Positions 7,597 through 44,903 of a stretch of DNA of 64,000 nt are shown here, one piece after another. This DNA comes from Marinitoga hydrogenitolerans DSM 16785. GTDB lineage: Bacteria; Thermotogota; Thermotogae; Petrotogales; Petrotogaceae. The first letter of the stretch is position 1. Each line of letters starts with the position of its first letter. The translations under genes and the position numbers were made by a program. The notes under the pieces are model-generated. The model was not told the origin of the DNA, ran no database searches, and worked only from the letters and a program-made list of their open reading frames with translations. Location of the stretch: assembly GCF_900129175.1 (NCBI RefSeq), contig NZ_FQUI01000002.1:1-64000 (forward strand). Reading direction: 5' to 3'.

Positions 7597-7638
7597 TAAA
7601 ATAGGCACACTCCGTTAAAATAGAGAGTGCCTATTTTA
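7597..7638. terminator. Bidirectional intrinsic terminator
   Basis: A 15-bp stem with one mismatch (7598-7612 with 7623-7637) is rich in AAAATAGGCAC on one arm and GTGCCTATTTT on the other, giving U-tracts in both directions. It separates the convergent EamA gene and alcohol dehydrogenase. The rest of 7469-7693 holds only small weak hairpins (for example 7501-7518). Confidence 0.8.
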
Positions 7639-7693
7639 ATTTTAGTAAAAATATCTAAACACACTTAAAAAGATTTTTATGGAATGTATTATA

Positions 7694-8866: not shown

Positions 8867-8943
8867 ATAGTCACCCCCATAATATAATTTGCATTGCTAA
8901 TTATATTATATCACAAATTTTCTCACATTTAAAATTCCTATCC

Positions 8944-8995
8944 TTAACATTTCTTAATATTTATAAATATATAGAAAAACTAATAATTCTATAAT
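8944..8995 (+). promoter_or_regulatory. Candidate Pho-box and -10 of the pst operon
   Basis: TATAAT at 8990-8995 lies 36 bases before the pstS start and no good -35 is visible, as expected for an activator-dependent promoter. Upstream, TTAACA (8944-8949) and TTAATA (8954-8959) are spaced about one helical turn apart and resemble PhoB/PhoP half-sites. The match is weak. Confidence 0.4.
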
Positions 8996-9031
8996 AAAGA
9001 CGTCAAAATAAAATATAGGAGGTTGAAAATC

Positions 9032-9856: not shown

Positions 9857-9871
9857 AAAGGAGTGTTTCTT

Positions 9872-27946: not shown

Positions 27947-28930
27947 GTGATCGAAATAATTACGACTAAAGATATTGCTAAAATTGCGAATGTTTCTATA
28001 GCAACTGTTTCAAGAGTTTTAAACAATAATCCTAATGTTTCTGAAAAAACAAGAAAAAAAGTGATAATGGCAATTGAATCTTTAGGATATGAACCTAATC
28101 TATTCGCAAAAAATTTGGCTAAAAAAAACAAATGGAATATTGCGATAGGCTGTACAGAAGAAGTTTTTGAGGGTTTTAAAGATTCTAAAAATAATTTTTA
28201 CCTTCCAATCATGTCTGGTATTAAAGAATATTTTTCTAAAATAAAAGCTGAAATATTTATTTTTTCAATTGAAGATAAAAAATTAAATATATCTTTTAAT
28301 GATGTTGATGGATTTTTGTTAGTTGGTGGTGGTTTAAAAAAAGAAGATATCGAATTTTTTTTAAAATATAAGAAACCTGTTGTTGTTGTTGATGAATATG
28401 TTTGGGGACTTGACGTTGATAGTATAGTAAGTAATGGATTTTTGGGAACATATAATATAGTAAGATTTTTTCTAGAAAAAGGATATAAAAAAATTGTTTA
28501 TTTCCATTTTAAAGAAAAACATTATAGCTTTGAACAACGAAAATTAGGTTATGAAAAAGCTTTGCTTGAAAAAGATTTGATACCAAAAATATATTCATTT
28601 CAAGACATAACCGATTTAAAAAATTTAACCAAAAATGTAATGAAAGAAAAACCTGAAATCATTGTAACAAGCAAGGATTTATGCGCAATTGAAATAATGA
28701 ATATTTTAAATGAAAACAAATACAAAATACCTGACGATGTTGGAGTTATAGGATTTGATGATCTGAAAATTTCAGAAGATTTTCAGCTTACAACTGTTAG
28801 AGTCCCAAGAGAAGAAATGGGCAATTTAGCAGCTGGAAGATTATTTGATCTAGTAAATGGTGTTAATCCTCATCCTATAGTAATTTCACTTTTCACAAAA
28901 CCAATAATACGAAAAAGCGTAAAAATTTAA
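27947..28930 (+). CDS. LacI-family regulator of the inositol operon
   Basis: This repressor has about 327 residues, with the helix-turn-helix TTKDIAKIANVSIATVSRVLNNNPNVS and a sugar-binding-type effector domain ending PIIRKSVKI. It heads the operon, with the GAPDH-like gene 18 bases downstream, and has an operator just upstream shared with the divergent GH130-like gene. It is related to the regulator at 46191 (shared IVSNGF, RGYKK/KGYKK and HP..SLFT segments), and both control GH130 genes. The GTG at 27947 is within the GGGGTG ribosome site. AUA (27956) or AUU (27959) codons, at better spacing and at the usual LacI N-terminus, are possible starts. Confidence 0.88.
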   Translation: MIEIITTKDIAKIANVSIATVSRVLNNNPNVSEKTRKKVIMAIESLGYEPNLFAKNLAKKNKWNIAIGCTEEVFEGFKDSKNNFYLPIMSGIKEYFSKIKAEIFIFSIEDKKLNISFNDVDGFLLVGGGLKKEDIEFFLKYKKPVVVVDEYVWGLDVDSIVSNGFLGTYNIVRFFLEKGYKKIVYFHFKEKHYSFEQRKLGYEKALLEKDLIPKIYSFQDITDLKNLTKNVMKEKPEIIVTSKDLCAIEIMNILNENKYKIPDDVGVIGFDDLKISEDFQLTTVRVPREEMGNLAAGRLFDLVNGVNPHPIVISLFTKPIIRKSVKI

Positions 28931-28948
28931 AAAAAGGAGTTGATGAGC

Positions 28949-29974
28949 ATGGTAAAAGTTGGTGTGGTTGGTTATGGTACTATCGGGCAAAGATTAGCTG
29001 ACGGTGTTGCTTTACAAAAAGATATGGAATTAATAGGAATTGCTGATGTTGCTCCCACATTACCTGTATTGGCTTTAAAAGAAAAAGGAATGCCTTATAA
29101 TTTTTATTTAGCTCTTTCAGAAAATAAAGAAAAGTTAGAAAAATTTGGTATTCCAATTTCTGGCAATTTGGAAGATTTGATAAAAAAATGTGACATAATT
29201 TTAGATGCTACAAATGCTGGAATTGGAGCAAAAAATAAAAAATTATATGAAAAATATGGTAAAAAAGCTATTTTTCAAGGGGGAGAGAAAACTGAAATTG
29301 CTGATGTATTTTTTCACGGTTATGCAAATTTCGAAAAAGGTTTGGGAAAACAATTTTTAAAACTTACCTCTTGTAACACAACCGGATTAATAAGAACCGT
29401 TGATGCGTTAGATAGAGAAATAGGAATTGATAATGTAATAATAACAATTGTTAGAAGGGTTGCTGATCCAGGAGATTATCATAGAGGACTCACAAATGCT
29501 CTTAAAGTTGACAAAGTTCCAAATCATCAAGCTGTAGATTTAATGCTTGTTATGCCTCACGTAAAAGCTACAGGAACATTAGTACATACTCCTGTTACAC
29601 ATGGCCATTTTATTACAGTTGCTGCTAAGCCTAAAAAAACTGTTACTAAAGAAGCTGTTGTAGAAATATTTAAAAAACACCCTCGAATTAGAGTTGTTAA
29701 AATTGAAGATGGATTCTTAGGTAATGCATCTATTTTTAAATTTGGTAGAGATCTTGGACATCCAAGAGGTGATTTATATGAAGTGTTTACATGGGAAGAA
29801 ACTATAACTGTATTTGATGACAGAATAATATATTCAATTCATATTCCTCAAGAATCTGTTACTATTCCAGAAACAATAGACGGTATTAGAGCAGCAATGA
29901 AAATGCAATTAGATAGATTAGAAGCAGTAAGCTTAACTAATAAATACTTAAATATAAAAAATATAAATTATTAG
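28949..29974 (+). CDS. gap: Archaeal-type (type II) glyceraldehyde-3-phosphate dehydrogenase paralogue
   Basis: This is a 341-residue phosphorylating aldehyde dehydrogenase of the archaeal GAPDH class. Visible features are the dinucleotide fold GVVGYGTIGQRLADGV, the catalytic SCNTTGLIRT (Cys142), RRVADPGDY, and the C-terminal IPQESVTIPETIDGIRA. Bacterial glycolysis normally uses the unrelated-looking class I enzyme. The archaeal GPxNAIxP segment reads GLTNALKV here, hinting at a changed substrate site. In this inositol operon I infer oxidation of D-malate semialdehyde, a structural analogue of glyceraldehyde 3-phosphate, to an acyl phosphate. Ordinary GAPDH activity remains possible. The ATG at 28949 follows AAAGGAG. 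Confidence 0.88.
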   Translation: MVKVGVVGYGTIGQRLADGVALQKDMELIGIADVAPTLPVLALKEKGMPYNFYLALSENKEKLEKFGIPISGNLEDLIKKCDIILDATNAGIGAKNKKLYEKYGKKAIFQGGEKTEIADVFFHGYANFEKGLGKQFLKLTSCNTTGLIRTVDALDREIGIDNVIITIVRRVADPGDYHRGLTNALKVDKVPNHQAVDLMLVMPHVKATGTLVHTPVTHGHFITVAAKPKKTVTKEAVVEIFKKHPRIRVVKIEDGFLGNASIFKFGRDLGHPRGDLYEVFTWEETITVFDDRIIYSIHIPQESVTIPETIDGIRAAMKMQLDRLEAVSLTNKYLNIKNINY

Positions 29975-29980
29975 TATCTT

Positions 29981-30009
29981 TTATATGGTGACTTTTAGTC
30001 ACCATATAA
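29981..30009 (+). other. Stem-loop between the GAPDH-like and PGK-like genes
   Basis: A perfect 13-bp stem (TTATATGGTGACT 29981-29993 with AGTCACCATATAA 29997-30009) and a 3-base loop have no U-tract after them. It sits in the only sizeable gap of the operon and may set RNA processing or relative expression of the genes on either side. Confidence 0.65.
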
Positions 30010-30059
30010 ACTTAATAATCATGAGAAACAATTATTTAAAAAACATGTGAGGTGATAAC

Positions 30060-31322
30060 ATGAAGGATCTTAAAATAAATACTTTAGATGATTTTGACTT
30101 TTACGATAAGACTGTTATTTTAAGAGTCGATATCAATTCACCACTTGACCCAAAAACGAAAAAAATTGTAAACGAAAATAGGATCAATAAGGTTGTACCT
30201 ACAATCAAAGAATTATTAAATAAAGGTGCAAAATTAGCTATAATAGCTCATCAAGGTGATTCGCTTGATTATTTCAATCTAATCCCACTTGAAGAACATG
30301 CGAAAAAGCTTTCAGAAAAAATTGGTGCGGAAATTAAATATATTGATGATGTTGCGGGTCCTGCTGCTCAAAATTTAATAAAAAATTTAAAAAAGGGTGA
30401 AGCAATACTTCTCGGAAATCTCAGATATTTAAGTGAAGAAATTTCTACCTTTGAAGATACTGTTAAATTAAGCCCTAAAGAAATGCTAAATACATTTTTA
30501 ATTCGTCATTTGGCACCTCTTGGAGATATTTATGTAAATGAAGCTTTTTCTGCCGCACATAGAAATGCTCCTTCAATGGTTGCATTTGAAGAGCTTTTAC
30601 CTACAGCTGGTGGTAGATTGTTAATTTCTGAAATAAATGCCTTATCAACTGTAATGAAAAATCCTCAAAAACCATCTATCTTTGTTTTAGGAGGATTAAA
30701 AGTCTCAGATGCTTTTGGAATGATGAAACAAGTATTAGAAAATGGCACTGCTGATAAGATTTTAACTTGTGGTGTAACTGGAATTATCATGCATATGTCT
30801 CTAGGCAAATCTTTTGGTAAAAAACAAGAAAAATTTATATATGATCGTTCTTTAAATAAATTTTTTGAACCTGCTAAAGAATTTATGAAAAAGTGGGGAG
30901 ATAAATTTATTAATCCAATTGATTTTGCTTATGAAAATAACGGAAAAAGAATAGAAGTAAGTCTAGATGATTTGCCTGTTAACGATGCACTATTCCTAGA
31001 TATTGGCACAAAAACAATTGAATTATTTAAGAAAGAAATAAATAACGCAAAAACTATATTTGTCAATGGGCCTGCTGGAGCTTATGATCAAAATAAAAAT
31101 TTTGAAAAAGGAACATATGAAATATGGAATGCAATTGCTGATTCAAATGCTTACTCTGTAATAGGTGGTGGCGACTCTGTAAGCGCTGCCCATAAATTGG
31201 TAAAAGATGCTGAAAAGAAATTTAGCTATATTTGCACTGCCGGAGGAGCTATGGTTAGATTTTTATCCGGAAAAGAATTGCCGCTCATAAAAGCGTTAAA
31301 AAAGGCATATAGAAAGAGGTGA
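30060..31322 (+). CDS. pgk: Archaeal-type phosphoglycerate kinase paralogue with altered phosphate site
   Basis: This 420-residue acyl-phosphate kinase has the archaeal PGK lay-out: LRVDINSPLDP at the N-terminus, GNLRYLSEE, YVNEAFSAAHRNAPSMV, VLGGLKVSDA, FVNGPAGAYD and the C-terminal GGGDSVSAA. Of the basic residues that grip 3-phosphoglycerate, R41, H64, R122 and R168 are kept. The Arg of the HxGRP loop is replaced: the loop reads HQGDSLD, with Asp67. In the 3-phosphoglycerate complex this region helps bind the substrate phosphate. That fits a substrate carrying a carboxylate or lacking the phosphate. I infer D-malyl phosphate to D-malate with ATP formation. A GAGGTGAT ribosome site precedes the ATG. 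Confidence 0.88.
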   Translation: MKDLKINTLDDFDFYDKTVILRVDINSPLDPKTKKIVNENRINKVVPTIKELLNKGAKLAIIAHQGDSLDYFNLIPLEEHAKKLSEKIGAEIKYIDDVAGPAAQNLIKNLKKGEAILLGNLRYLSEEISTFEDTVKLSPKEMLNTFLIRHLAPLGDIYVNEAFSAAHRNAPSMVAFEELLPTAGGRLLISEINALSTVMKNPQKPSIFVLGGLKVSDAFGMMKQVLENGTADKILTCGVTGIIMHMSLGKSFGKKQEKFIYDRSLNKFFEPAKEFMKKWGDKFINPIDFAYENNGKRIEVSLDDLPVNDALFLDIGTKTIELFKKEINNAKTIFVNGPAGAYDQNKNFEKGTYEIWNAIADSNAYSVIGGGDSVSAAHKLVKDAEKKFSYICTAGGAMVRFLSGKELPLIKALKKAYRKR

Positions 31323-31327
31323 TTTTT

Positions 31328-32401
31328 ATGAAAAAGTATAAAATAGCTGTAATACCAGGTGATGGTGTTGGTGTTGAAGTTATAAATGAGGGATTGAAAA
31401 TTCTTAATACTATAAAAGAAATACACGGAGGTATAGATTTTGAATTTAAAACATTTCCGTGGAGTTGTGAATATTATTTGAAAACTGGAAAAATGATGCC
31501 TAAAGATGGAATAAAAATTTTAAGTGATTTTGAGGCTATATATTTGGGTGCTGTTGGATTTCCTGGTGTTCCAGATCACATTTCATTATGGGGATTATTA
31601 TTGCCTATAAGAAAGGAATTCGACCAATATGTTAATCTAAGACCAGTTAAATTATTAAAAGGAATTAAGGGTCCTTTAAGAACTGAAAAAATTGATTTTG
31701 TTGTTGTAAGAGAAAATGTAGAAGGAGAATATTCCGGAACAGGAGGACGATTATACCAAGGTACTGAAAACGAAGTTGCTATTCAAACTGCAGTTTTCAC
31801 CAGAAAAGGAACAGAAAGAGTTATGAGATATGCTTTTGAATTAGCAATGAAAAGAAATAAAAATTTAATTTCTACAACAAAATCAAATGCTTTGAATTAT
31901 GGAATGGTTTTTTGGGATGACATTTTTAATAATTTAAAAAACGATTATCCTGAAGTCGAAACTCGCACTATGCATGTTGATGCTTTATCTGGATATTTTC
32001 TACTACATCCTGAAAATATAGATGTAGTTGTTGCTTCTAATTTGTTTGGGGATATATTAACAGATTTAGGATCAGCAATGCAAGGTAGTATAGGAATCGC
32101 TCCTGGAGCAAATATTAATCCTGAAAAAAAATACCCATCGATGTTTGAGCCTGTTCATGGATCAGCTCCTGATGTCGCTGGAAAAGGAATTGCAAACCCT
32201 ATAGGTGCCATTTGGACAGCGAGTATGATGTTAGATCACCTTGGGGAAACAGATTCTGCTAAATTAATCATGAAAGCACTAGAAAAAGTAACTGAAGAAG
32301 GTATATATCTCACAAAAGATGTGGGCGGAAATTCTAAAACTCATGAAGTTGGAGATGCTGTTAATAACAAAATAAAAGAATTAGCAAAGAACAGTTGGTG
32401 A
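31328..32401 (+). CDS. dmlA: D-malate/tartrate dehydrogenase (decarboxylating), DmlA/TtuC family
   Basis: This 357-residue beta-decarboxylating dehydrogenase belongs to the isopropylmalate/isocitrate dehydrogenase superfamily. The segment VPDHISLWGLLLPIRKEFDQ and YVNLRPVKLL are diagnostic of the tartrate/D-malate branch, as in E. coli DmlA. The metal and NAD segments VVRENVEGEYS, ASNLFGDILTDLG and EPVHGSAPDVAGK are intact. DmlA-type enzymes convert D-malate to pyruvate, CO2 and NADH. No tartrate or malate uptake gene is nearby, so D-malate is probably generated inside the inositol pathway. The ATG at 31328 follows AGAGGTGA. Confidence 0.85.
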   Translation: MKKYKIAVIPGDGVGVEVINEGLKILNTIKEIHGGIDFEFKTFPWSCEYYLKTGKMMPKDGIKILSDFEAIYLGAVGFPGVPDHISLWGLLLPIRKEFDQYVNLRPVKLLKGIKGPLRTEKIDFVVVRENVEGEYSGTGGRLYQGTENEVAIQTAVFTRKGTERVMRYAFELAMKRNKNLISTTKSNALNYGMVFWDDIFNNLKNDYPEVETRTMHVDALSGYFLLHPENIDVVVASNLFGDILTDLGSAMQGSIGIAPGANINPEKKYPSMFEPVHGSAPDVAGKGIANPIGAIWTASMMLDHLGETDSAKLIMKALEKVTEEGIYLTKDVGGNSKTHEVGDAVNNKIKELAKNSW

Positions 32402-32405
32402 GAAA

Positions 32406-33257
32406 ATGCTTACAAAAGATGAATTAAAAAAAATTAAAAAGTTTGCAATCCAAATACGCATAGAAACATTAAAGGAAATCGGAAATTTAGGATTTGGACA
32501 TTTACCAGGTGCTATGTCTATTGTAGAATTATTAGCTGTTTTATATAGTAAAGTTCTTAAAATTGACCCAAAAAAAACAGATTGGAATGAAAGAGATTGG
32601 TTTATTTTATCTAAAGGTCATGCTGGTCCATCTCTATATGCAACTTTAGCGATAAAAGGATATTTCCCTAAAGAATGGTTATTAACTTTGAATAAAGGTG
32701 GAACATTATTACCAAGCCATACAGATAAAAACTTAACCCCGGGAATTGATATGACAACAGGTTCATTAGGCCAAGGAATGTCTACAGCTCTTGGTGTAGC
32801 TTTAGGTTTTAAACTCTCAAAAAAAGATAATTATGTATATGTTGTGTTAGGAGATGGCGAGTCTCAAGAAGGGCAAGTTTGGGAAGGCGCTTTATATGGA
32901 GGAAATTTAAAGTTAGATAATTTAACTGTATTTATTGACTATAACAAACAACAATTAGATGGATATACAAAAGATATAAACGATTTAGGAGATTTAAGAA
33001 AGAAATGGGAAGATTTTGGTTGGTATGCTATTGAAGTCGATGGACATAATATTGAGGATATATATAATGCTGTAGTAGAGGCTAAAAAAATCAAAAATAA
33101 AAGTTCTGTAATAATTTTGAATACGGTTAAAGGAAAAGGTGTTTCATTTTTAGAAGGCAAAGTTGCACATCATGTAAAAGTAAAACAAACTGAAATTGAA
33201 AAAGCGATAAAAATCCTTGAGAAAGAACTAGAAAGCCTTGAAGAAGGTGATTTGTAA
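32406..33257 (+). CDS. Split transketolase, N-terminal (thiamine diphosphate-binding) subunit
   Basis: This 283-residue protein is the ThDP pyrophosphate-binding half of a transketolase. It has LSKGHAGPSLYATLA, the ThDP motif GDGESQEGQVWEGALYGG ... NLTVFIDYN, and TTGSLGQGMSTALGVALG. Split transketolases in catabolic operons usually act on special ketose substrates (for example apulose-4-phosphate or sulfofructose). Here it lies between the dehydrogenase and iolB. I infer it takes the two-carbon unit from 2-deoxy-5-keto-D-gluconate, whose hydroxyls have the 3S,4R arrangement transketolase needs. It overlaps the C-terminal subunit by one base. Confidence 0.9.
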   Translation: MLTKDELKKIKKFAIQIRIETLKEIGNLGFGHLPGAMSIVELLAVLYSKVLKIDPKKTDWNERDWFILSKGHAGPSLYATLAIKGYFPKEWLLTLNKGGTLLPSHTDKNLTPGIDMTTGSLGQGMSTALGVALGFKLSKKDNYVYVVLGDGESQEGQVWEGALYGGNLKLDNLTVFIDYNKQQLDGYTKDINDLGDLRKKWEDFGWYAIEVDGHNIEDIYNAVVEAKKIKNKSSVIILNTVKGKGVSFLEGKVAHHVKVKQTEIEKAIKILEKELESLEEGDL

Positions 33258-34222
33258 TGGATGTTAAGATATCTAAAGATAATAATGTGGATACTAGAAT
33301 GATGAGAGATGCTTATATAGATAAGCTAATTGAATTAGCAAAAAATGATGAAAAAATAGTTCTTTTAGATGCTGATTTGATGAGTTCTAATGGTACCATA
33401 AAATTTTCAAAAATATTCCCGGAAAGAACATTTAATGTTGGTGTTCAAGAAGCAAATATGGTAGGAATAGCTGCTGGATTAGCGGCAACAGGGAAAATAT
33501 CTTTTGCACATACATTTACATCTTTTATGTCACGAAGAGCTCTTGATCAAGTATATATGTCAGTAGCATATGCAAAATTAAATGTTAAATTGGTTGCTAC
33601 AGATCCTGGAATAACTGCTGCATATAACGGCGGGACACATATGGCTTTACAAGATTTTGCTGTTATGTTATCAATACCTACAATGTATGTTGTAGAACCT
33701 ACTGATTGTGTTATGATCGAAAACTTAGTTGAACAAATAACTTATACAAAAGCTCCCTTTTATGTAAGACTATTAAGAAAAAATCCTATTAAAATATATG
33801 AAAATTGTAGTAAATTTAAGTTAGGAAAAGGCGTTATACTTATGGATGGAAATGATGCAACCATTATAGCAAGTGGAATTATGGTTAGTGAAAGTTTAAA
33901 AGCTGCTGAATTATTAAAAAAAGAAAATATTAATGTACGTGTTATAGACATGTTTACATTAAAACCTATTGATGAGAAATTAATTATTGAAAGTGCCAAA
34001 AAAACTGGTGCGATTATAACAGCTGAAAACCATACAATCATTAATGGGTTGGGAATGTCAGTAGCAAAAGTAGTTTCCGAAAATTATCCTGTTCCTATAG
34101 AGATGATTGGCATAAATGATGAATTTGGTGAAGTGGGCGATGTTGAATATTTGAAAAAAAGATTCAAATTGACATCAGAAGATATTGTAAAAAAAGTTAA
34201 AAAAGCTTTAAAAAGAAAATAA
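33257..34222 (+). CDS. Split transketolase, C-terminal (pyrimidine-binding) subunit
   Basis: This 321-residue partner of the preceding subunit carries the pyrimidine-binding domain (GVQEANMVGIAAGLAATGKISFAHTF, with the catalytic Glu in QEANM) and the C-terminal transketolase domain (VRVIDMFTLKPIDEKLI). It starts one base before the end of the N-terminal subunit, so the two are certainly made together. The pair should form an alpha2beta2 enzyme. Its donor in this context is the proposed deoxyketogluconate, with glyceraldehyde 3-phosphate or ribose 5-phosphate as acceptor. Confidence 0.9.
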   Translation: MDVKISKDNNVDTRMMRDAYIDKLIELAKNDEKIVLLDADLMSSNGTIKFSKIFPERTFNVGVQEANMVGIAAGLAATGKISFAHTFTSFMSRRALDQVYMSVAYAKLNVKLVATDPGITAAYNGGTHMALQDFAVMLSIPTMYVVEPTDCVMIENLVEQITYTKAPFYVRLLRKNPIKIYENCSKFKLGKGVILMDGNDATIIASGIMVSESLKAAELLKKENINVRVIDMFTLKPIDEKLIIESAKKTGAIITAENHTIINGLGMSVAKVVSENYPVPIEMIGINDEFGEVGDVEYLKKRFKLTSEDIVKKVKKALKRK

Positions 34223-34234
34223 GGGGGGATTTTT

Positions 34235-35026
34235 TTGATAATAAAAAAAGAAAAAGAATTTAAAAAAGGATATAATTCTATAACTTCCGAAGATGATAAA
34301 CAAAATAACACTATGATGGACTTCGGAATAATAATACTGAAAGATAGCGATGTATATATAAATTCTGAAAAAAAAGAAAGAGTTTTTTTAATAATGAATG
34401 GAGAAGTTTTATGTGAATATGATGAAATTTCATTTACAATAACAAGAAATTCTTTATTTGATGAATCTCCATATGTTTTGCATATTCCTAATAATATAAA
34501 TATAAAGTTAATTGCAAAAAAAGAAGCTGAGATCTGCTATGTTGCAACAAAAAATGATGTTATTTTTCAAAGCAAATTATATAATCCCAAAGATGTACGT
34601 TCTGAATATCGTGGAAAAGGTACTATGAAAGAAACATCAACCAGAATTGTTAGGACTGTTTTTGATAAATCTAACGCTCCACAATCAAATTTGGTCATAG
34701 GTGAAGTCATAAATTATCCTGGTAAATGGTCGAGCTACCCTCCACATCATCATCCTCAACCTGAAATTTATCATTATAGATTTTTACCAAAACAAGGATT
34801 CGGAATATCAATCTTAGGAGATGATGCATATAAAATATATGATGGAGATACTGTATTGATATTAGATGATAAAGTACATCCTCAAGTTTCAGCACCTGGT
34901 TATGCAATGTATTATATATGGGCCATAAGACATTTAGAAAATAACCCATATATTACTCCAACTTTTGATAAAGAACATTTATGGGTAATGGAGAAAAATG
35001 CTTCCATTTGGCCAGAGGAGGAATGA
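34235..35026 (+). CDS. iolB: 5-deoxy-glucuronate isomerase
   Basis: IolB isomerises 5-deoxy-D-glucuronate to 2-deoxy-5-keto-D-gluconate. The 263-residue bicupin has the metal-binding run PPHHHPQPEIYHYRF and the C-terminal VHPQVSAPGYAMYYIWAIRH seen in IolB. The start is a TTG at 34235 after GGGGGGA. The neighbouring iolD, iolE and iolG place it firmly in inositol catabolism. Confidence 0.93.
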   Translation: MIIKKEKEFKKGYNSITSEDDKQNNTMMDFGIIILKDSDVYINSEKKERVFLIMNGEVLCEYDEISFTITRNSLFDESPYVLHIPNNINIKLIAKKEAEICYVATKNDVIFQSKLYNPKDVRSEYRGKGTMKETSTRIVRTVFDKSNAPQSNLVIGEVINYPGKWSSYPPHHHPQPEIYHYRFLPKQGFGISILGDDAYKIYDGDTVLILDDKVHPQVSAPGYAMYYIWAIRHLENNPYITPTFDKEHLWVMEKNASIWPEEE

Positions 35027-35028
35027 TT

Positions 35029-36903
35029 ATGAAAAAACTAAAATTAACAATGGCACAAGCTTTATTAAAATTTTTAGATAATCAATATGTGGAATTTGAT
35101 GGAAAAGAATACAAATTTATAAAAGGAATTTTTGGTATTTTCGGACATGGAAATGTATTAGGAATTGCAGAAGCTTTAGAAAACATGAAAGATTTGTCAT
35201 TAAAATTTTATCAGGGTCATAATGAACAAGGAATGGTTCATGCAGCAACTGCTTACGCGAAACAAAAAAACAGATTAGAAATTTTTGCCTGTACTAGTTC
35301 CATAGGACCTGGAGCGCTAAATATGGTAACAGCTGCAGCAACTGCTACTGTAAATAAAATACCAGTATTATTGTTACCTGGAGATATTTTCGCTTCAAGA
35401 CAACCTGATCCTGTATTACAGCAATTAGAAATGCCTAATAATTATAAAATGGTTGCTAATGATGCATTCAAATCTGTAAGTAAATATTGGGATAGAATAG
35501 AAAGACCTGAACAATTGATGTCAGCAGTAATAAATGCTATGCGTGTTTTAACGGATCCTGTTGAAACTGGAGCTGTTACATTAGCCTTACCCCAAGATGT
35601 ACAAGGAGAAGTATATGAATATACATATGATTTTTTCAGAAAAAGAGTATGGATAATTGAAAGAAGAACTCCCAACTATGAAAGTTTGAAAAAAGCGGCT
35701 AATCTTATATCAAATAAGAAAAAACCGTTAATCATTGCAGGTGGCGGTGTCCATTATTCATTTGCATATGATGAATTAAAAGAATTTGCTGAAACATTTA
35801 ATATTCCAATTGGGTTTACTCAAGCTGGAAAAGGTGCATTAGTATGGGATCATCCGTTAAATATGGGTGGAATAGGTACAACAGGAACATTAGCAGCGAA
35901 TAAATTAGCAAAAGAAGCTGATTTGATAATAGCAATTGGAACAAGATTGATGGATTTCACTACCGCTTCTAAAACACAATTTCAAAATAAAAATGTGGAA
36001 TTTTTGAATATTAACATTTCAAGATTTGACGGCATAAAATTAGATTCAACATTACTTTTATCAGATGCTAAATTGGCATTAAAAGAATTAAAAAAAGAAC
36101 TTGAAAAAAGAGAATACAAATCCGGATATACTCAAAAGTATATTTCTTCATTAAAAAATAAATGGAATGAAGAAGTTAATAAATTATATTCTTTAAATTC
36201 TAAAAAAGGTATTGTTCAAACAAGAGCTTTAGGGTTAATTAACGAATTGTTTAATGAAAATGATATTATAGTTGGAGCTGCTGGAAGTTTACCTGGAGAT
36301 TTACATAAACTTTGGAGATGCAAAGGTATTAAAACTTATCATCTTGAATATGGTTTTTCTTGCATGGGTTATGAGGTTGCCGGAACTTACGGGGTAAAAC
36401 TAGCTGAACCTAAAAAAGAAATTTGGACTATGATCAGTGATGGTAGTTATATAATGTTGCATTCCGAACTTGTGTCTTCAATCCAAGAAGGAAAAAAGAT
36501 TAATATTATCATGTTTGATAATGGAGGATTCCAATCTATAAACTCTCTACAAAAAGGTCATGGAAGCGAAAAAGGATTTGGGAACGAATTAAGATATAGA
36601 AATTCAAAAACTGATAAACTAGATGGAGAATATATGAAAATTGATTTTGCCAAAAATGCTGAAAGTTATGGAGCAAAAGCTTTTTATGTTGACACCATTG
36701 AAAAATTAGAAGATGCTTTAAAAAAAGCACGAGAATCGGAAATTAGTACTCTTATTCATATAAAAATTATACCTGGAACTCAATCTTCAGGATATGAAAC
36801 TTTTTGGAGAGTTGGTATTGCTCATCATTCTCAAAACCCTAAAGTTATTGAAAAGCAAAAGGATCATGATGAATACTTACAAAAATATGCAAAAGATTAT
36901 TGA
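35029..36903 (+). CDS. iolD: 3D-(3,5/4)-trihydroxycyclohexane-1,2-dione hydrolase (ThDP-dependent)
   Basis: IolD opens the inositol-derived ring diketone to 5-deoxy-glucuronate. The 624-residue ThDP enzyme of the acetolactate-synthase fold starts LTMAQALLKFLDNQY. It has GIFGHGNVLGIAEAL, the catalytic Glu in YQGHNEQGMVHAA, IGPGALNMVTAAATA and the ThDP motif SDGSYIMLHSEL ... NIIMFDNGGF. The ATG at 35029 is chosen because GAGGAGG lies 8 bases upstream. It begins 2 bases after the iolB stop. Confidence 0.95.
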   Translation: MKKLKLTMAQALLKFLDNQYVEFDGKEYKFIKGIFGIFGHGNVLGIAEALENMKDLSLKFYQGHNEQGMVHAATAYAKQKNRLEIFACTSSIGPGALNMVTAAATATVNKIPVLLLPGDIFASRQPDPVLQQLEMPNNYKMVANDAFKSVSKYWDRIERPEQLMSAVINAMRVLTDPVETGAVTLALPQDVQGEVYEYTYDFFRKRVWIIERRTPNYESLKKAANLISNKKKPLIIAGGGVHYSFAYDELKEFAETFNIPIGFTQAGKGALVWDHPLNMGGIGTTGTLAANKLAKEADLIIAIGTRLMDFTTASKTQFQNKNVEFLNINISRFDGIKLDSTLLLSDAKLALKELKKELEKREYKSGYTQKYISSLKNKWNEEVNKLYSLNSKKGIVQTRALGLINELFNENDIIVGAAGSLPGDLHKLWRCKGIKTYHLEYGFSCMGYEVAGTYGVKLAEPKKEIWTMISDGSYIMLHSELVSSIQEGKKINIIMFDNGGFQSINSLQKGHGSEKGFGNELRYRNSKTDKLDGEYMKIDFAKNAESYGAKAFYVDTIEKLEDALKKARESEISTLIHIKIIPGTQSSGYETFWRVGIAHHSQNPKVIEKQKDHDEYLQKYAKDY

Positions 36904-36917
36904 TAGGAGGAATTTTT

Positions 36918-37814
36918 ATGTTAAAAAAAGATGATATTAAAATTGGCATCGCCCCAATTGCATGGACAAATGATGATATGCCAGAACTTGGTGGAGATAT
37001 ATCATTTGAACAGTGTATAGATGAAATGCAAAAAGCTGGCTATGAAGGTACTGAAATCGGAAATAAATATCCCAAAGATCCAATAAAATTAAAGTCAGAG
37101 TTAGAAAAAAGAAATTTAAAAGTAGCCAGTCAATGGTTTAGCACATTTTTTACTGTTGATAAATTTGATAAAACAATTGAAGATTTTAAAAAACATATGA
37201 ATTTTCTAAAAGCTGTTGGTGCTGAAGTTATCGTCGTTGCCGAATGCGGAAAATCCATTCATGGCAATATAAATATACCTTTACACAAAAACAAACCTGT
37301 CTTTAATGATGAAGAATGGAATAAACTCGCTAAAGGTTTAAATATTCTCGGCAATTTAGCAAAAGAAAAAAATATGAAAATAGTATATCATCATCATATG
37401 GGAACTGGAGTTCAAACCTATGAAGAAATTATTAAATTAATGGAATTAACAGATCCAACAAAAGTTTTTTTATTACTTGATACAGGTCATATTGTATTTT
37501 CAAATGGAGATCCACTTAAATTAATAGAAAAATATCCTGATAGAATTAAACACATTCATTTAAAAGATTTAAGAAAAGATATATTAGAAAAAACTTATAA
37601 AGAAGATTTGAGTTTTTTAAACGCAGTTAAAGAAGGTGTATTTACTGTTCCTGGTGATGGTATGATTGATTTCAAACCTATTTTTAATAGTTTAAATAAA
37701 ATAGATTATAAAGGATGGTTAATAGTTGAAGCTGAACAAGATCCAAAAAAAGCACCACCATTAAAATTTGCTTTAAAAGCACGAAACTATATTAAAAATC
37801 TAATAGGATTTTGA
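36918..37814 (+). CDS. iolE: 2-keto-myo-inositol dehydratase
   Basis: IolE removes water from 2-keto-myo-inositol to form the cyclohexane-dione. The 298-residue xylose-isomerase-type TIM barrel begins KIGIAPIAWTNDDMPELGG, a hallmark of IolE. It contains the metal-site segments YHHHMGTGVQ, LLDTGHIVFS and HIHLKD, and ends with WLIVEAEQDPKKAPP. The ATG at 36918 has ATAGGAGG upstream. It sits between iolD and iolG. Confidence 0.95.
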   Translation: MLKKDDIKIGIAPIAWTNDDMPELGGDISFEQCIDEMQKAGYEGTEIGNKYPKDPIKLKSELEKRNLKVASQWFSTFFTVDKFDKTIEDFKKHMNFLKAVGAEVIVVAECGKSIHGNINIPLHKNKPVFNDEEWNKLAKGLNILGNLAKEKNMKIVYHHHMGTGVQTYEEIIKLMELTDPTKVFLLLDTGHIVFSNGDPLKLIEKYPDRIKHIHLKDLRKDILEKTYKEDLSFLNAVKEGVFTVPGDGMIDFKPIFNSLNKIDYKGWLIVEAEQDPKKAPPLKFALKARNYIKNLIGF

Positions 37815-37823
37815 GGTGATATT

Positions 37824-38837
37824 ATGGATAAAAAACTTAAAATTGGTGTAATTGGAGCAGGAAGGATTGGTAAAATTCATGCAAGGAATATTGCCAAATT
37901 AAATAATGTTGAATTAATAAGTATTGCTGATATTAATGTTGAAGCAGCCAAAGATTTAGCAATAAAAGTTGGTGCAAAAAAATATTTTTCTGATTTCCTA
38001 AAAGTGATAAACGATGATGAAATTGATGCTGTTGTTATTTGCTCGCCAACTAATACTCATGCAAAGCTAATAATAGAAAGTGCAAAAGCTGGAAAAGATA
38101 TATTTTGCGAAAAACCTATAGACTTTGATATAGAAGTTATCAAAAAAGCTTTGGAAGTTGTTAAAGAATGTGGAGTGAAATTACAATTGGGCTTTAATAG
38201 AAGATTTGATCATAATTTTAAAAAAATCAAAGAATTAATACAAAATGATGAGTTAGGAAAACCTCATATTATAAAAATTACATCTAGAGATCCAAAAGCA
38301 CCCCCTCCTGAATATGTAAAAACTTCTGGAGGAATTTTCATGGATATGACCATACATGATTTTGATATGGCAAGATATCTTGCTAATTCGGAAGTAGAAG
38401 AGGTTTTTGCTGTGGGTAATGTTTTAATAAATCCAGAATTTGAAGAATTACATGATTTTGATACTGCTGTTATAACATTAAAATTTAAAAACAATGCCGT
38501 ATGTCTAATAGATAATAGTAGAGAAACTTCATATGGTTATGATCAGAGAATTGAATATTTTGGAATTAAAGGATGTGCTATTGCTCAAAATGATAAACCT
38601 ACCAATACTATAATATTAAACGAAAAAGGGGTTTTATCTGATAAACCTTTATACTTTTTTTTAGAAAGATATATGAAATCATTTGAAGAAGAAATAAAAG
38701 AGTTTGTTAATTCTGTATTAAACGGTAAAAATGTTCCTGTTTCTGGAGAGGATGGTTTAAAAGCCACTTTAATCGCTAAAGCTGCTTTAATTTCCGCAAG
38801 AGAAAACCGCCCTGTAAAAATGGAAGAACTTTTATAA
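37824..38837 (+). CDS. iolG: myo-Inositol 2-dehydrogenase
   Basis: IolG oxidises myo-inositol to 2-keto-myo-inositol with NAD. The 337-residue GFO/IDH/MocA protein shows the Rossmann motif GVIGAGRIGKIHARN, the catalytic Lys in FCEKPID, and the conserved GGIFMDMTIHDFDMARYL with Asp/His catalytic residues. It is last in the operon, just before a strong terminator. The family also contains other inositol dehydrogenases (scyllo-inositol, D-chiro-inositol), so stereoisomer preference is open. Confidence 0.92.
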   Translation: MDKKLKIGVIGAGRIGKIHARNIAKLNNVELISIADINVEAAKDLAIKVGAKKYFSDFLKVINDDEIDAVVICSPTNTHAKLIIESAKAGKDIFCEKPIDFDIEVIKKALEVVKECGVKLQLGFNRRFDHNFKKIKELIQNDELGKPHIIKITSRDPKAPPPEYVKTSGGIFMDMTIHDFDMARYLANSEVEEVFAVGNVLINPEFEELHDFDTAVITLKFKNNAVCLIDNSRETSYGYDQRIEYFGIKGCAIAQNDKPTNTIILNEKGVLSDKPLYFFLERYMKSFEEEIKEFVNSVLNGKNVPVSGEDGLKATLIAKAALISARENRPVKMEELL

Positions 38838-38978: not shown

Positions 38979-39692
38979 TTATTCATCAACTTCCTTCAAT
39001 AATTTAAGAAGTGATGGATAATGTGTGGTGATTCCATCCACATTCATACGAATCATTTTTTTCATATCTTCTTTTCTATCTACAGTCCAAACTTGAACAA
39101 ATAATCCATTTAAATGTGCATTATAAACAAGGTTTTCATTACATAATTTATAATTTATATTAATTCCAATTGCTCCAGTTTTAATTGCAATCTTTATTAA
39201 TGTTTTATTAAAAATACTAATATCTTCTTTGGTTAAATATTCAAATTCTTGAGAATTCAAAAAAATAGCATAATTATCATCCAATTCTCTTAACTTCATA
39301 ACCCACGATGAACTACAACCACTAAAAATTATTTTTTCTGTGTAATTTAATTTTTTTAATAAAGTAATTACTGGCTCTATAACATCCTCACTTTTTAAAT
39401 CAAGGTTAAGATGTATCTTCATATTTATATCTTTTAAAACCTCTTCTAATGAAATAACTCCATTTTTTCTTAAAATGTTATTTATAACATTTGATGTTTT
39501 TTCAAAATGCCCAGAATTTTTATAAATAAATGGGTCATGTGATAAAACCAACACTTTATCTTTACTCATATCAATATCAACTTCAATAATATCTGCACTG
39601 GAATTAATTGCTGAATATATATGTTCAAAAGAATTATCTTCTGTATCATTACAACCAGAATGAGCTGTTATTAATGGCTTTAATGCTTTCAT
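38979..39692 (-). CDS. Glycerophosphodiester phosphodiesterase-family protein, divergent active site
   Basis: This 237-residue GDPD-fold TIM barrel lacks a signal peptide, so it acts inside the cell on an imported substrate. The two catalytic His (His11 in TAHSGC, His52 in LSHDP) and the metal ligands Glu37/Asp39 (IIEVDI) are kept. The usual HRG reads HSG, and the PENT metal-ligand motif reads EDNS, with Asp for Glu. The C-terminal VQVWTVDRKEDM and GITTHYP match the family. It is the last gene of an ABC operon beside the inositol operon, so glycerophosphoinositol or di-myo-inositol phosphate are candidate substrates. This is inference. Confidence 0.8.
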   Translation of the reverse strand: MKALKPLITAHSGCNDTEDNSFEHIYSAINSSADIIEVDIDMSKDKVLVLSHDPFIYKNSGHFEKTSNVINNILRKNGVISLEEVLKDINMKIHLNLDLKSEDVIEPVITLLKKLNYTEKIIFSGCSSSWVMKLRELDDNYAIFLNSQEFEYLTKEDISIFNKTLIKIAIKTGAIGININYKLCNENLVYNAHLNGLFVQVWTVDRKEDMKKMIRMNVDGITTHYPSLLKLLKEVDE

Positions 39693-39701
39693 ATATTCCT
39701 C

Positions 39702-40802
39702 CTAAAAAAGAAGATTTTCTCCTGTGTTTTTATCAAAAAGATGAAAATTAGTATCTGGAAATTTTAAATATATATCATCATCTATTTTTAATTCATACTT
39801 TTCATCACTGATTATTTTAAAAATATTGTTTCCTAATTTGATATTATATATAATTTCCCTTCCTAAAGGTTCAAGGATATATACCTTTGATTTAAAAGAA
39901 TTTCCTTCTTCTTTCTTAAACCTTATTTTAATATCTTCTGGTCTCAATCCCATCAAAACATTTTTCTCACTTATTTTATTTATTTTTTCTTTTATTTCCT
40001 TATTAACTATTTTTATCTTAATATCATCTTCAATTTTAATATAAACATCCTCACCTAATTTTATAATTTCAACATCTATTATATTCATTGACGGAGTACC
40101 AACAAATCTTGCTACAAATATGTTTTTTGGTTGATTATATATTTTATCCGGAATATCAAATTGCATCAACTTACCTTTATTAAATACAGCAATTCTATCA
40201 GCCATTGTCATTGCTTCAATCTGATCATGAGTAACATAAACAGAAGTTATTCCTAAATCATGTTGCAACTTTTTGATTTCTGCACGCATATAAGCTCTTA
40301 ATGCAGCATCTAAATTAGATAAAGGTTCATCAAATAATAAAATTTTAGGTTTTTTTACAAGAGCTCTAGCAATTGCAACTCTTTGCTGTTGTCCTCCTGA
40401 AATTTGATTAGGTTTTCTATCTAGTAATTTACCAATATCAAGATTTTTAGTTACATCTTTTACTTTCTTATCTATTTCATTTTTATCCATTTTTTTTGCT
40501 TGAAGTGGGAATGCAATGTTTTCATATAATGTCATATGAGGATATAATGCATAACTTTGAAAGACCATACCGATTTCTCTATCTTTCGGAGGAACTTCAT
40601 TTACAACTTGATTGTCAAATAAAATTTCTCCTCCTGTTGGCTTATATATTCCTGCTAACATTAACAATGTTGTAGTTTTACCACATCCAGATGGCCCTAA
40701 AAACACTACGAATTCTCCATCATTTATTTTTAATGAAACATCATCTACAGCTTTAACATTTCCAAAATGCTTTTTTAAATTTTTTAATTCAATTGTTGCC
40801 AT
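39702..40802 (-). CDS. Carbohydrate ABC transporter ATPase (UgpC/MsmK/MalK type)
   Basis: This 366-residue importer ATPase has Walker A GPSGCGKTTTLLMLAG, Q-loop VFQSYALYPHMTLYENI, signature ISGGQQQRVAIARAL, Walker B ILLFDEPLSNLDAALR and the H-loop YVTHDQIEAM. A C-terminal TOBE-type regulatory domain (MGLRPEDIKIRF) follows. It is the only CUT1-type ATPase in the window and may also energise the ATPase-less importers at 21234, 48438 and 63339. The ATG at 40802 is preceded by GAGTGAT; nine extra upstream bases in frame are discarded. Confidence 0.93.
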   Translation of the reverse strand: MATIELKNLKKHFGNVKAVDDVSLKINDGEFVVFLGPSGCGKTTTLLMLAGIYKPTGGEILFDNQVVNEVPPKDREIGMVFQSYALYPHMTLYENIAFPLQAKKMDKNEIDKKVKDVTKNLDIGKLLDRKPNQISGGQQQRVAIARALVKKPKILLFDEPLSNLDAALRAYMRAEIKKLQHDLGITSVYVTHDQIEAMTMADRIAVFNKGKLMQFDIPDKIYNQPKNIFVARFVGTPSMNIIDVEIIKLGEDVYIKIEDDIKIKIVNKEIKEKINKISEKNVLMGLRPEDIKIRFKKEEGNSFKSKVYILEPLGREIIYNIKLGNNIFKIISDEKYELKIDDDIYLKFPDTNFHLFDKNTGENLLF

Positions 40803-40814
40803 AAATATCACTCC

Positions 40815-41681
40815 TTAACCTTTAGTACCCGTTATATTAACTTCTAAAAGATATTTGTTTGTAAGTAAAAAGAATATTAATGTTGGTATTATGTAAAATA
40901 AAGAAATGGATGTTAATAAACCATAATCTACAAATCTGAAATCTCCAATTATTCCTTTTATATATCTTGACAAAGTCCAGGTTTGTTGGTTTAAAATAAA
41001 TGTATTTATAAAAACAAACTCTGACCATCCAGAAAGAAATCCAAAAATCGCAGCAACTGCAATACCTGGTTTAACTAAAGGTAAAATTATTTTCCTAAAA
41101 ACTTGTATTCTGCTATAACCATCAACCAAACCTGCCCATTCTATTTCCCATGGAAGTTGATCATAAAAACCTTTCATAATCCACGAGCCCCATGGTATTT
41201 CTAAAGCAGCCTTTAATAAAATGACTCCCCATAAAGTATTGATTAAATTTAGCGTATTCAATACATAATAAATAGCAACCAAAAGAGAAACTGCAGGAAA
41301 TGAATGCAATACAAGAATACTTTTTAAAATAGGAACTCTACCCTTAAATTTAAACCTTGAAAGTGCATATCCAGCAAAACTCGATACAAAAACTTCAAAT
41401 GCCATTACAAGAAAAGCTACAATAAAAGTATTAAAAGTTACAGACCAAATATTAGGGTATCCTTTAACAGATTCCCATAAAAACCTCCAATGCTCTAATG
41501 TGAATTCAGTAGGAATTATTCCATATTTCATTCCTTTCGAAAAAGAACTTAATATAAGCCATAAATAACTCAAAATTATTGGAAGACTAATAGTTATTAA
41601 AATAAAATAAACTATTATGCGTATTATTTTTTCTTTTTTCCTTTGAAAAAAAGTTATTTTATATTTTTTATCACTCATCAT
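40815..41681 (-). CDS. Carbohydrate ABC transporter permease (MalG type), probable inositol-compound importer
   Basis: This 288-residue membrane subunit has six helices. Its CUT1 coupling loop, EWAGLVDGYSRIQVFRKIILPLV, departs somewhat from the usual EAAxxDGA. The C-terminus ends LEVNITGTKG. It overlaps its partner permease by 4 bases. It belongs to the operon of a DeoR regulator, TM0415-like kinase and GDPD protein, suggesting an inositol-containing substrate. Confidence 0.88.
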   Translation of the reverse strand: MMSDKKYKITFFQRKKEKIIRIIVYFILITISLPIILSYLWLILSSFSKGMKYGIIPTEFTLEHWRFLWESVKGYPNIWSVTFNTFIVAFLVMAFEVFVSSFAGYALSRFKFKGRVPILKSILVLHSFPAVSLLVAIYYVLNTLNLINTLWGVILLKAALEIPWGSWIMKGFYDQLPWEIEWAGLVDGYSRIQVFRKIILPLVKPGIAVAAIFGFLSGWSEFVFINTFILNQQTWTLSRYIKGIIGDFRFVDYGLLTSISLFYIIPTLIFFLLTNKYLLEVNITGTKG

Positions 41682-42598
41682 GAATCAACCTCTATTCTAG
41701 GATCTTCCATCATATTTTCAAATTTAAAGATTTTCAAATAAATTAATGAAGCCACAAATCCTAATACTACTAAAACTAAAGACAATGCCGCACCATAACC
41801 AAATCTAAAATTTTCAAATGCTGTATGATATGTATATAATGCCCATACTTCTGTGGAAAACACAGGACCTCCATCAGTTAATATTAGAATATATTCAAAT
41901 GATGTTAAAAGTGACAATGTTTGATATGCTGTTGTAAAAAGAATTTGCCATTTTAAAATAGGTAAAATTACCTTTCTAACTGTAAAAAACCATCCTCCAC
42001 CATCAACTTTTGCAGCATAAATATAATCGCGTGGTATTGATTTTATTGCTGAAGTAAATAAAATCATCCCAAAAGAAGCTCCAACAAACCCATTTGCAAA
42101 TATAATAATTAACATTGGGTGAGCACTCAAAAAGTTTATTGGCTCTTTCCCAAAAGCTTCTGTCCTTATACCATTTATCATACCAAACTTTGTTGGGTCA
42201 AATATCCATAACCATAACAATGAATAAACTACAGAAGGGGTTAATCTCGGCAACATCCATAACAATCTAAAAACCAACCCTCCATTTTCATCAATAGAAG
42301 TTGTTAATAATGATAAAACTAATGCCAACCCTACATTAAAAAAGGTTAATGTTAAAAGCACATATGTAAATGTATTTTTTATAACTATTGGAACTAAAAA
42401 ATCAGAAAACATATCTTTAAAGTTAGTGAATCCATGAAAATCCCAATTAAAAGAATAATCCATATCAGTGAAAGATAGAATAAAAGTTAATATTGCTGGT
42501 ATAACAAAAAATACTATTACAAGTAATATACCAGGAAATAAAAAGAAAAAGAGCGATAACTTTGTACCTTTTTTATAATTTTTTTTAGAAATATTCAT
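41678..42598 (-). CDS. Carbohydrate ABC transporter permease (MalF type)
   Basis: This is the partner permease, 306 residues, with six or seven hydrophobic segments and a coupling loop reading YAAKVDGGGWFFTVRKVILPIL. It lies after a stem-loop that separates it from the binding-protein gene. Together with the gene at 40815 it forms the membrane channel of the importer. Confidence 0.9.
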   Translation of the reverse strand: MNISKKNYKKGTKLSLFFFLFPGILLVIVFFVIPAILTFILSFTDMDYSFNWDFHGFTNFKDMFSDFLVPIVIKNTFTYVLLTLTFFNVGLALVLSLLTTSIDENGGLVFRLLWMLPRLTPSVVYSLLWLWIFDPTKFGMINGIRTEAFGKEPINFLSAHPMLIIIFANGFVGASFGMILFTSAIKSIPRDYIYAAKVDGGGWFFTVRKVILPILKWQILFTTAYQTLSLLTSFEYILILTDGGPVFSTEVWALYTYHTAFENFRFGYGAALSLVLVVLGFVASLIYLKIFKFENMMEDPRIEVDS

Positions 42599-42623
42599 TA
42601 TATCACGACCCCTTTACTTTAAA

Positions 42624-42650
42624 TACTCTCTCTCCTAAAGAGAGAGAGTA
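42624..42650 (-). other. Stem-loop between binding-protein and permease genes
   Basis: A perfect 11-bp stem (TACTCTCTCTC with GAGAGAGAGTA) and 5-base loop start 6 bases after the binding-protein stop. It has the same position as the unrelated stem-loop at 23002 in the galactose operon and probably the same role in favouring receptor expression. Confidence 0.7.
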
Positions 42651-42656
42651 ATAAAA

Positions 42657-44009
42657 TTACTTTTTAATAATAACATCATCTTTCAATCTTGATTTCAAAG
42701 TCATTTCAACAAATCTAATTGCTTGATCTGGTGTAAATCTTCCTGCTTCTAAAGCTGTAATTGCATCAAAAATAGCTTTATTATATTCATCAAATCTATC
42801 ATTATTTGGTATAAATGATGTATATGGTAATAAAGCAGTTACTTTTTTCGTAAATTCATCTTTTGCATAGTATTGATTACTCATTTCTTCAAATCTTATA
42901 GCTAAATGTCCGCTATCTATAGCATGTTTAGCATTTAAATCTGCTGCTGAAGCTAATGTTATCAATAATGTTGCTAATTCTGGATATTTGGATCTTGAAG
43001 TAACCATGTATACAACTGGATGTGATAAAGTGTTTCCAGGTTTTCCTTTATAAGCACTTGGTGTTAATGAAAAAGCAAATTTTTCTTTTATATCTTCATT
43101 TGTATATCCAAACATTTTTTTCCATTCTGCAACATTCCATGTGCCTCCCATATGGAATAATACATTACCTTCAGGACCAGCAAAAGAACTATGAACCGAA
43201 TTCCAAGGTGTTCCGATTAAAGTTTTTGGTGTAATTTTATATTTGTTTGATATATCATAGAAGAACTGGAATGCTTTTCTCATATTTACTTCATCAAAAA
43301 CTAATTTATTAGTAGCTTGATCATATATTTGTGCTCCAAAAGATGTAAAAATTTGGAAATAATCTATACCTTTTGAAGGTCTATGCCATAATCCCCATTT
43401 TACAACACCCATTTCAATACCTTCTTGAGCAATTCTAACTAAATCGTATAATGTATATTCTCCTGTATTAAATTTATTCATCATATCATCTATTTGAGCA
43501 TCTGTATAACCCATTTCTCGCAATTTATCTCTTCTAGCATATAGTGGTCTTGCTTCTGTATCTTGAGGAATTCCATAAATCTTACCTTTAAACTTTGTTG
43601 ATTCCCATAAAGAAGGAATTATATCATACAATCCTAAATCCCAAAATTTTTGAACATAAGAGTCTATAGGTATTATATATTTTGCTGCTGCCCACATTCC
43701 AATATCATCATGCCCACTGGTTATAATATCTATTTGTTGCTTTCCAGATTGAAATGCTATCAATGCTCTTTGTTTGTATGATCCCCAATCAGTTGAATCA
43801 AAAGATACTTCTAAATCTATTCTTATATCAGAACCTGCCGTTTCAAGCATCTTATTTAATCTCTCTGCTGCTTTTTCTAAATTAACTTTTCTATTAATCG
43901 ACGGATCATCTGGTCCTACTGTCCATGCTACCATTTTTATGGTTTTAACACTAAACATCATGGTACTAACAATCATCAAAACTACCAATAAAACACTAAG
44001 TTTTTTCAT
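42657..44009 (-). CDS. Sugar ABC transporter substrate-binding protein, probable inositol-compound receptor
   Basis: This 450-residue periplasmic receptor has a signal peptide (MKKLSVLLVVLMIVSTMMFS) and the mature start VKTIKMVAWTVGPDDPSINRK. Typical CUT1 receptor segments follow (GKIYGIPQDTEARPLYARRD, FHMGGTWNVAEWKK). Binding specificity cannot be read from sequence. The kinase encoded just upstream is of the TM0415 type, found with inositol genes in T. maritima, which suggests inositol or an inositol phosphodiester. It lies 28 bases after the kinase gene. Confidence 0.85.
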   Translation of the reverse strand: MKKLSVLLVVLMIVSTMMFSVKTIKMVAWTVGPDDPSINRKVNLEKAAERLNKMLETAGSDIRIDLEVSFDSTDWGSYKQRALIAFQSGKQQIDIITSGHDDIGMWAAAKYIIPIDSYVQKFWDLGLYDIIPSLWESTKFKGKIYGIPQDTEARPLYARRDKLREMGYTDAQIDDMMNKFNTGEYTLYDLVRIAQEGIEMGVVKWGLWHRPSKGIDYFQIFTSFGAQIYDQATNKLVFDEVNMRKAFQFFYDISNKYKITPKTLIGTPWNSVHSSFAGPEGNVLFHMGGTWNVAEWKKMFGYTNEDIKEKFAFSLTPSAYKGKPGNTLSHPVVYMVTSRSKYPELATLLITLASAADLNAKHAIDSGHLAIRFEEMSNQYYAKDEFTKKVTALLPYTSFIPNNDRFDEYNKAIFDAITALEAGRFTPDQAIRFVEMTLKSRLKDDVIIKK

Positions 44010-44037
44010 ACCAATCCCTCCTGAAATGATTTATTTT

Positions 44038-44883: not shown

Positions 44884-44903
44884 ATAAAAACCTCCTAAAC
44901 AAA

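Follow-up and report, generated by a model that had tools for sequence, protein, structure and literature searches.

A phosphoglycerate kinase paralogue in an inositol operon of Marinitoga hydrogenitolerans as a probable D-malyl-phosphate kinase of a proposed transketolase pathway

A paralogue of phosphoglycerate kinase (PGK) encoded by Marinitoga hydrogenitolerans DSM 16785 very probably acts as an ATP-forming D-malate acyl-phosphate kinase in a pathway of inositol breakdown that needs no IolC kinase. The gene lies in the window, by which we mean the whole stretch of DNA that was analysed (64,000 nucleotides of contig NZ_FQUI01000002.1). We also consider it probable, more broadly, that anaerobic bacteria possess a natural transketolase route for inositol in which a GAPDH and a PGK of new specificity gain ATP by way of D-malyl phosphate, and that this pair of enzymes is in addition a portable module for malate semialdehyde. 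Sequences, gene order, conservation and co-occurrence are what has been observed, while every reaction and the structural meaning of the aspartate at position 67 of the paralogue (Asp67) are inferred.

Results

The PGK paralogue is encoded by the third of ten same-strand genes (27947-38837) which are separated by gaps of no more than 85 bp, with several overlaps. The features of this operon are as follows.

27947..28930, + strand: LacI-family regulator, gene 1 of the operon and a probable local repressor (LacI/RbsR-like matches; 9 bp before the GAPDH gene)
28940..29974, + strand: type II (archaeal-type) GAPDH paralogue, proposed NAD-dependent phosphorylating D-malate semialdehyde dehydrogenase (NF003251, 405 bits; TIGR01546, 311 bits)
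30060..31322, + strand: PGK paralogue, proposed D-malyl-phosphate kinase (ATP-forming), 420 aa (PF00162)
30249..30269, + strand: HQGDSLD loop of the PGK paralogue (codons 64-70), with Asp67 replacing the phosphate-binding Arg (alignments)
31319..32401, + strand: tartrate/D-malate dehydrogenase (TTC/DmlA family), proposed to convert D-malate to pyruvate and CO2 (TIGR02089, 571 bits, cut-off 470)
32406..33257, + strand: transketolase N-terminal subunit (transketolase models, best 253 bits)
33257..34222, + strand: transketolase C-terminal subunit, with Asp116 for the substrate-site His (closest solved structure the split transketolase 6yaj)
34235..35026, + strand: IolB-like 5-deoxyglucuronate isomerase (TIGR04378, 106.6 bits, cut-off 205; PF04962 KduI/IolB, 191 bits, over the cut-off)
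34981..36903, + strand: IolD, trihydroxycyclohexanedione hydrolase (TIGR04377, 914 bits, cut-off 715; the true start is probably a little downstream of 34981)
36900..37814, + strand: IolE, inosose dehydratase (TIGR04379, 430 bits, cut-off 290)
37824..38837, + strand: IolG, inositol 2-dehydrogenase (TIGR04380, 469 bits, cut-off 355)

This compact operon holds the exact gene set that the proposed pathway needs. By established inositol chemistry IolG, IolE, IolD and IolB would convert myo-inositol to 5-deoxy-D-fructuronate (DKG; HOOC-CH2-CHOH-CHOH-CO-CH2OH). The split transketolase would cut DKG between the ketone and the adjacent CHOH and pass the two-carbon ketol to glyceraldehyde 3-phosphate, giving xylulose 5-phosphate and leaving HOOC-CH2-CHOH-CHO, that is (R)-3-hydroxy-4-oxobutanoate or D-malate semialdehyde, which is D at the hydroxyl carbon. 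The type II GAPDH paralogue is proposed to convert this aldehyde, with NAD+ and phosphate, to D-malyl 1-phosphate, a putative intermediate equivalent to 1,3-bisphosphoglycerate with a carboxylate for the distal phosphate; the PGK paralogue would then transfer the acyl phosphate to ADP, yielding D-malate and ATP. D-malate would proceed to pyruvate, either via the TTC enzyme or via a malate racemase and malic enzyme. Within the operon, to which this observation is limited, neither the IolJ aldolase nor the IolA dehydrogenase was present. Convergent to the operon lies a minus-strand cluster (38979-45668) of a glycerophosphodiesterase-like gene, a Ugp/MalK-type ABC transporter, a PfkB kinase and a DeoR regulator, which might import a glycerophosphodiester, possibly of inositol.

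The PGK paralogue matches PF00162 with 352 bits (cut-off 27). Its predicted structure (pLDDT 91), which was used for the fold only and without docking, has P. horikoshii PGK as best PDB match (2cun, TM 0.87), the model being less sure in the substrate loops (pLDDT 75 and 65). The substrate loop reads AHQGDSLDYFN, and alignments with archaeal and bacterial PGKs put D67 where HLGRP or HQGRPG have their Arg and where the Pyrococcus enzyme has Lys (HQGKP). The first-pass annotation, which had proposed from the sequence alone that an HQGDSLD loop carries Asp67 in the place of Arg while the other basic residues are retained, is borne out on both counts: R41, H64, R122 and R168 are kept, and likewise H167, K214 and the GGGDS region. 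The four nearest relatives, which belong to the same phylum and share 74-76% identity, read HQGDTLD, and the next matches are ordinary PGKs at approximately 40%.

Relatives were gathered by scanning 84,980 species, each represented by a single genome, which returned 63 loci; the HQGDSLD loop was not part of the peptide patterns used to collect them. In a tree of 107 PGKs, which took in archaeal PGKs (mostly from one archaeal phylum) and bacterial ones from the phylum to which the window belongs, the paralogues formed a single clade of 56 members (support 1.0), to which the archaeal PGKs were closest (support 0.79). The residue-67 column of this clade holds D in 50 members, G in four and S in two, and that of the other 51 PGKs holds R in 49 and K in two. 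As all 56 clade members are non-basic at this position and all 51 others basic, and the clade has full support, the loss of the Arg is not due to chance. A sister subclade (L070, L071, L074, L075, L076 and L086) was seen to carry Gly or Ser for the Asp (HQGGDLEY, HQGSDIEY).

Twenty positions are specific to the Asp-bearing clade, 16 of them in the N-terminal, substrate-binding half and none basic. Loop 67-74, position 119 close to R122, an insertion spanning 129-137 and positions 169 and 173 account for most of them. Compared to archaeal-type PGK (P. horikoshii, 2cun), the paralogue has the same fold, the nucleotide-side motifs, the catalytic Arg41 and the larger part of the basic patch in common, but its clade is without a basic residue in the HxGRP loop and is set apart by loop 67-74, position 119 and the insertion. 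Provision of the missing Arg by a neighbouring residue had been named beforehand as an outcome that would refute the idea of a changed substrate. A replacement basic residue in the HQGDSLD loop was sought in the clade alignment and none was found; basic positions specific to the clade are limited to K34, K136 (in the insertion after the R122 loop) and R400, and it cannot be ruled out that K136 may partially substitute for the Arg.

In pig PGK the residues Arg65, Arg122 and Arg170 contact the 3-phosphate, and in human PGK Arg65 and Arg170 pair with an Asp of the C-domain upon domain closure (PMC7729029). Because of this pairing of Arg65 the change could instead concern domain closure. It should also be said that the loss of the Arg alone does not exclude 3-phosphoglycerate, since only one of the four side chains that contact the phosphate has gone; with H64, R122 and R168 kept, its binding could still be possible. 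A smaller and less charged distal group would fit the loss of Arg65 (human numbering), and the proposed chemistry fits an enzyme which keeps the acyl-phosphate end and alters the distal site.

An alternative is that the GAPDH and PGK paralogues are spare, archaea-derived glycolytic enzymes that boost lower glycolysis on inositol, the Arg having been lost without any change of substrate. We regard this as very unlikely. Both proteins do exceed the cut-offs of the GAPDH and PGK families, most PGK active-site residues are kept, and a structure is available for an R65Q mutant of the yeast enzyme (1qpg). The genome, however, which is 100% complete, already has a gap-pgk-tpi cluster of its own: it contains two PGK genes, the paralogue being one, and the second (560 bits, contig C26), which adjoins a type I GAPDH and TIM (triosephosphate isomerase), is the normal glycolytic gene. 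Arg loss in 56/56 paralogues and 0/51 other PGKs, and the crowding of clade-specific changes into the substrate loops, also speak against an unchanged substrate, which would moreover leave the linked D-malate and malate-racemase genes and the missing IolC unexplained.

Annotation based on scores would name both enzymes glycolytic, the PGK paralogue passing the Pfam PGK cut-off and the GAPDH paralogue that of the type II NCBIfam model. The latter protein reaches 311 bits with TIGR01546 (cut-off 232.9) and is also over the cut-off of NF003251 with 405 bits, and it keeps the SCNTTG motif with the catalytic Cys and the RR..DP motif. Against four solved archaeal enzymes it shows 40 clade-specific columns, some near the catalytic Cys/His, and the HH(G/A) motif and PTTLMH segment of these four enzymes become HQA and HTPVTHGH. 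The replacement of Lys36 by Asp suggests a preference for NAD+ over NADP+, a functional reading which is inferred. The substrate-site His is changed to Asp in every one of the 38 linked transketolases that belong to the main type. The His replaced by Asp116 is presumably a sugar-phosphate ligand in the solved transketolases, and on sequence grounds its exchange parallels the distal-site change of the PGK paralogue. The linked transketolases of L071 and L074 have Tyr where the others carry Asp.

The distribution of the genes was addressed in 55 paralogue loci, spread over Thermotogota, Bacillota, Chloroflexota, Spirochaetota and others. The GAPDH paralogue adjoins the PGK paralogue in 52 of these; two of the remaining three begin at a contig end, and in L054 the GAPDH was found by tblastn. 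A transketolase pair is present in 38/55 loci and transketolase or iol genes in 42/55. At 13 loci, several of them shortened by contig ends, the stretch contains the GAPDH-PGK pair but neither transketolase nor iol genes. No relative of the PGK paralogue was identified in the viral contigs searched.

Profile searches found no IolC kinase over the cut-off in any of 103 Thermotogota genomes; as a control, the search passed in 3 of 14 genomes. The best match in the window genome reached 145 bits (cut-off 300), and this candidate for an IolC-like kinase elsewhere in the genome was rejected, since it is probably a PfkB kinase of a general kind. The IolC matches did not include the PfkB gene at 44038-44913. 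IolD was over its cut-off in six of the 103 Thermotogota genomes and the PGK paralogue is present in five of these six and in no other; in the sixth the contig ends inside the TTC gene. Such co-occurrence would have a chance of 7e-8 if genomes were independent, a figure which is overstated owing to kinship. Among 20 further genomes IolC passed in only three, two of which (L045 and L050) contain the GAPDH-PGK core without iol genes.

Several loci place the core in other company. In L044 and L045 (approximately 7600-11240), without transketolase or iol genes, it adjoins a class III aminotransferase (GABA-transaminase-like) and a PrdR-like regulator, and these loci could make malate semialdehyde from 4-amino-3-hydroxybutyrate. 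In L086 (Acetobacterium bakii) and L049 (Clostridium magnum) the core occurs with a dehydrogenase complex of the 2-oxoacid/acetoin type (E1 alpha, E1 beta, E2 and E3) and a 3-hydroxyacyl-CoA-dehydrogenase-like gene, to which L086 adds molybdenum hydroxylase subunits. The clusters of L048 and L050 have no IolD, IolE or transketolase; the neighbours of the core there are malic enzyme, a 2-hydroxyacid dehydrogenase and genes resembling IolB and an Asp/Glu racemase. The presence of the core beside other genes supports malate semialdehyde as the substrate and not an exclusive link to inositol, and suggests that the GAPDH-PGK core serves as a module that handles malate semialdehyde of several different origins.

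Loci such as L044 and L045, with the class III aminotransferase, and L049 and L086, with the dehydrogenase complex, might also be taken to mean that the operon merely joins two independent modules, one in which inositol is broken down in the classical way by a kinase and an aldolase that escaped recognition, the other a D-malate module for a different substrate, for instance a product of carnitine or 4-amino-3-hydroxybutyrate; indeed carnitine breakdown runs through malic semialdehyde and D-malate (PMC11353897). We give this very little credence: transketolase or iol genes accompany the core in more than three quarters of the loci (42/55), IolC is absent from 103/103 Thermotogota genomes, and the rare IolC genes elsewhere (3/20) fall, in two cases of three, to L045 and L050, where the core is without iol genes.

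The linked genes for the last step of the proposed pathway, from D-malate to pyruvate, are of two kinds. Most loci have no D-malate dehydrogenase; a LarA-family gene is found instead in 39 loci, and malic enzyme in 20. The best NCBIfam match of the LarA-family member of L025 is NF052593 (LarAH6 malate racemase; 493 bits, cut-off 500), the next family reaching 380. Malate racemase activity has been demonstrated for an enzyme of the LarAH6 group; what it does in vivo was left open by that study (PMC7583248). Whole-genome searches found TTC without a close racemase in the window genome, L026/G015, L046/G112 and L067/G169, and a racemase without TTC in G021 and others; only G019 has both, so that the two are nearly exclusive across the genomes checked. 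In two cluster genomes (G117 and G167) these searches detected neither TTC nor a close malate racemase. The existence of two unrelated solutions, in one and the same kind of cluster, for turning D-malate into pyruvate points to a preceding step that yields D-malate. That the pair acts on some other transketolase-derived acyl phosphate, for example one made from tartrate semialdehyde (tartaryl phosphate) or from erythrose 4-phosphate (4-phosphoerythronyl phosphate), is hardly credible, for although the TTC enzymes carry the name of tartrate dehydrogenases and erythrose 4-phosphate is a usual transketolase product, IolE and IolD would give a deoxy compound leading to malate and not to tartrate, the racemase homologues match the malate group, often with malic enzyme, and erythrose 4-phosphate retains a distal phosphate, which is a misfit with the Arg loss.

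Discussion

The first-pass annotation had interpreted the missing Arg as the mark of a substrate without a phosphate at its distal end, such as D-malyl phosphate. This idea has gained support: the GAPDH and D-malate/tartrate dehydrogenase genes flank the PGK paralogue, iolB, iolD, iolE, iolG and the split transketolase belong to the same operon, a malate racemase homologue replaces the D-malate dehydrogenase in most relatives, and IolC is missing. The case for D-malyl phosphate is supported by the whole cluster and does not rest on the Arg loss alone, the kinase activity itself being inferred. Neither inositol breakdown by a transketolase nor a natural malyl phosphate was found reported in the open-access literature, subscription papers and bioRxiv being outside the scope of the search.

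PGK is a textbook example of an enzyme with a single task, and a widespread PGK clade whose substrate site has changed would amount to a natural experiment on how specificity is set. If the proposal is true, the pathway would account for the way in which organisms that lack IolC degrade inositol, with an ATP-making step replacing an ATP-spending one in anaerobes, and natural enzymes would be on offer for malyl phosphate chemistry, which until now has been reached by engineering. The GAPDH, PGK and transketolase paralogues look ordinary by score, and the pathway may for this reason be missed in many genomes. It would also provide an in vivo role for malate racemases, which was left open (PMC7583248).

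The proposed route shares parts with four known systems, each of which differs from it in other parts. The classical myo-inositol pathway of Bacillus consists of IolG, E, D, B, C, J and A; IolG, IolE, IolD and an IolB-like isomerase are common to both, whereas the Marinitoga operon is without IolC, and transketolase, GAPDH, PGK and D-malate dehydrogenase replace the kinase, the aldolase and the malonate semialdehyde dehydrogenase. In the synthetic malyl-phosphate pathway, whose authors in 2017 called malyl phosphate and malate semialdehyde unreported (PMC5481828), the two named compounds and malate recur, but that pathway is engineered, runs in the reducing direction and makes L-malate 4-phosphate, of other regiochemistry, by a mutant aspartate kinase. 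The degradation of L-carnitine in Acinetobacter leads from malic semialdehyde through D-malate to pyruvate, with a D-malate dehydrogenase (PMC11353897); these steps are the same as those proposed here, but the carnitine route begins with a monooxygenase and uses a non-phosphorylating aldehyde dehydrogenase, with no ATP. Finally, the SqwGH transketolase of sulfoglycolysis takes the ketol from an acidic ketose that carries no phosphate and passes it to glyceraldehyde 3-phosphate, so that xylulose 5-phosphate is formed (PMC11659671). The ketol transfer in this sulfoquinovose pathway is the same as the one we propose, with the difference that here the substrate would be a carboxylate and not a sulfonate, and that the leftover aldehyde, which there is isomerised and cut again, would here be oxidised with a gain of ATP.
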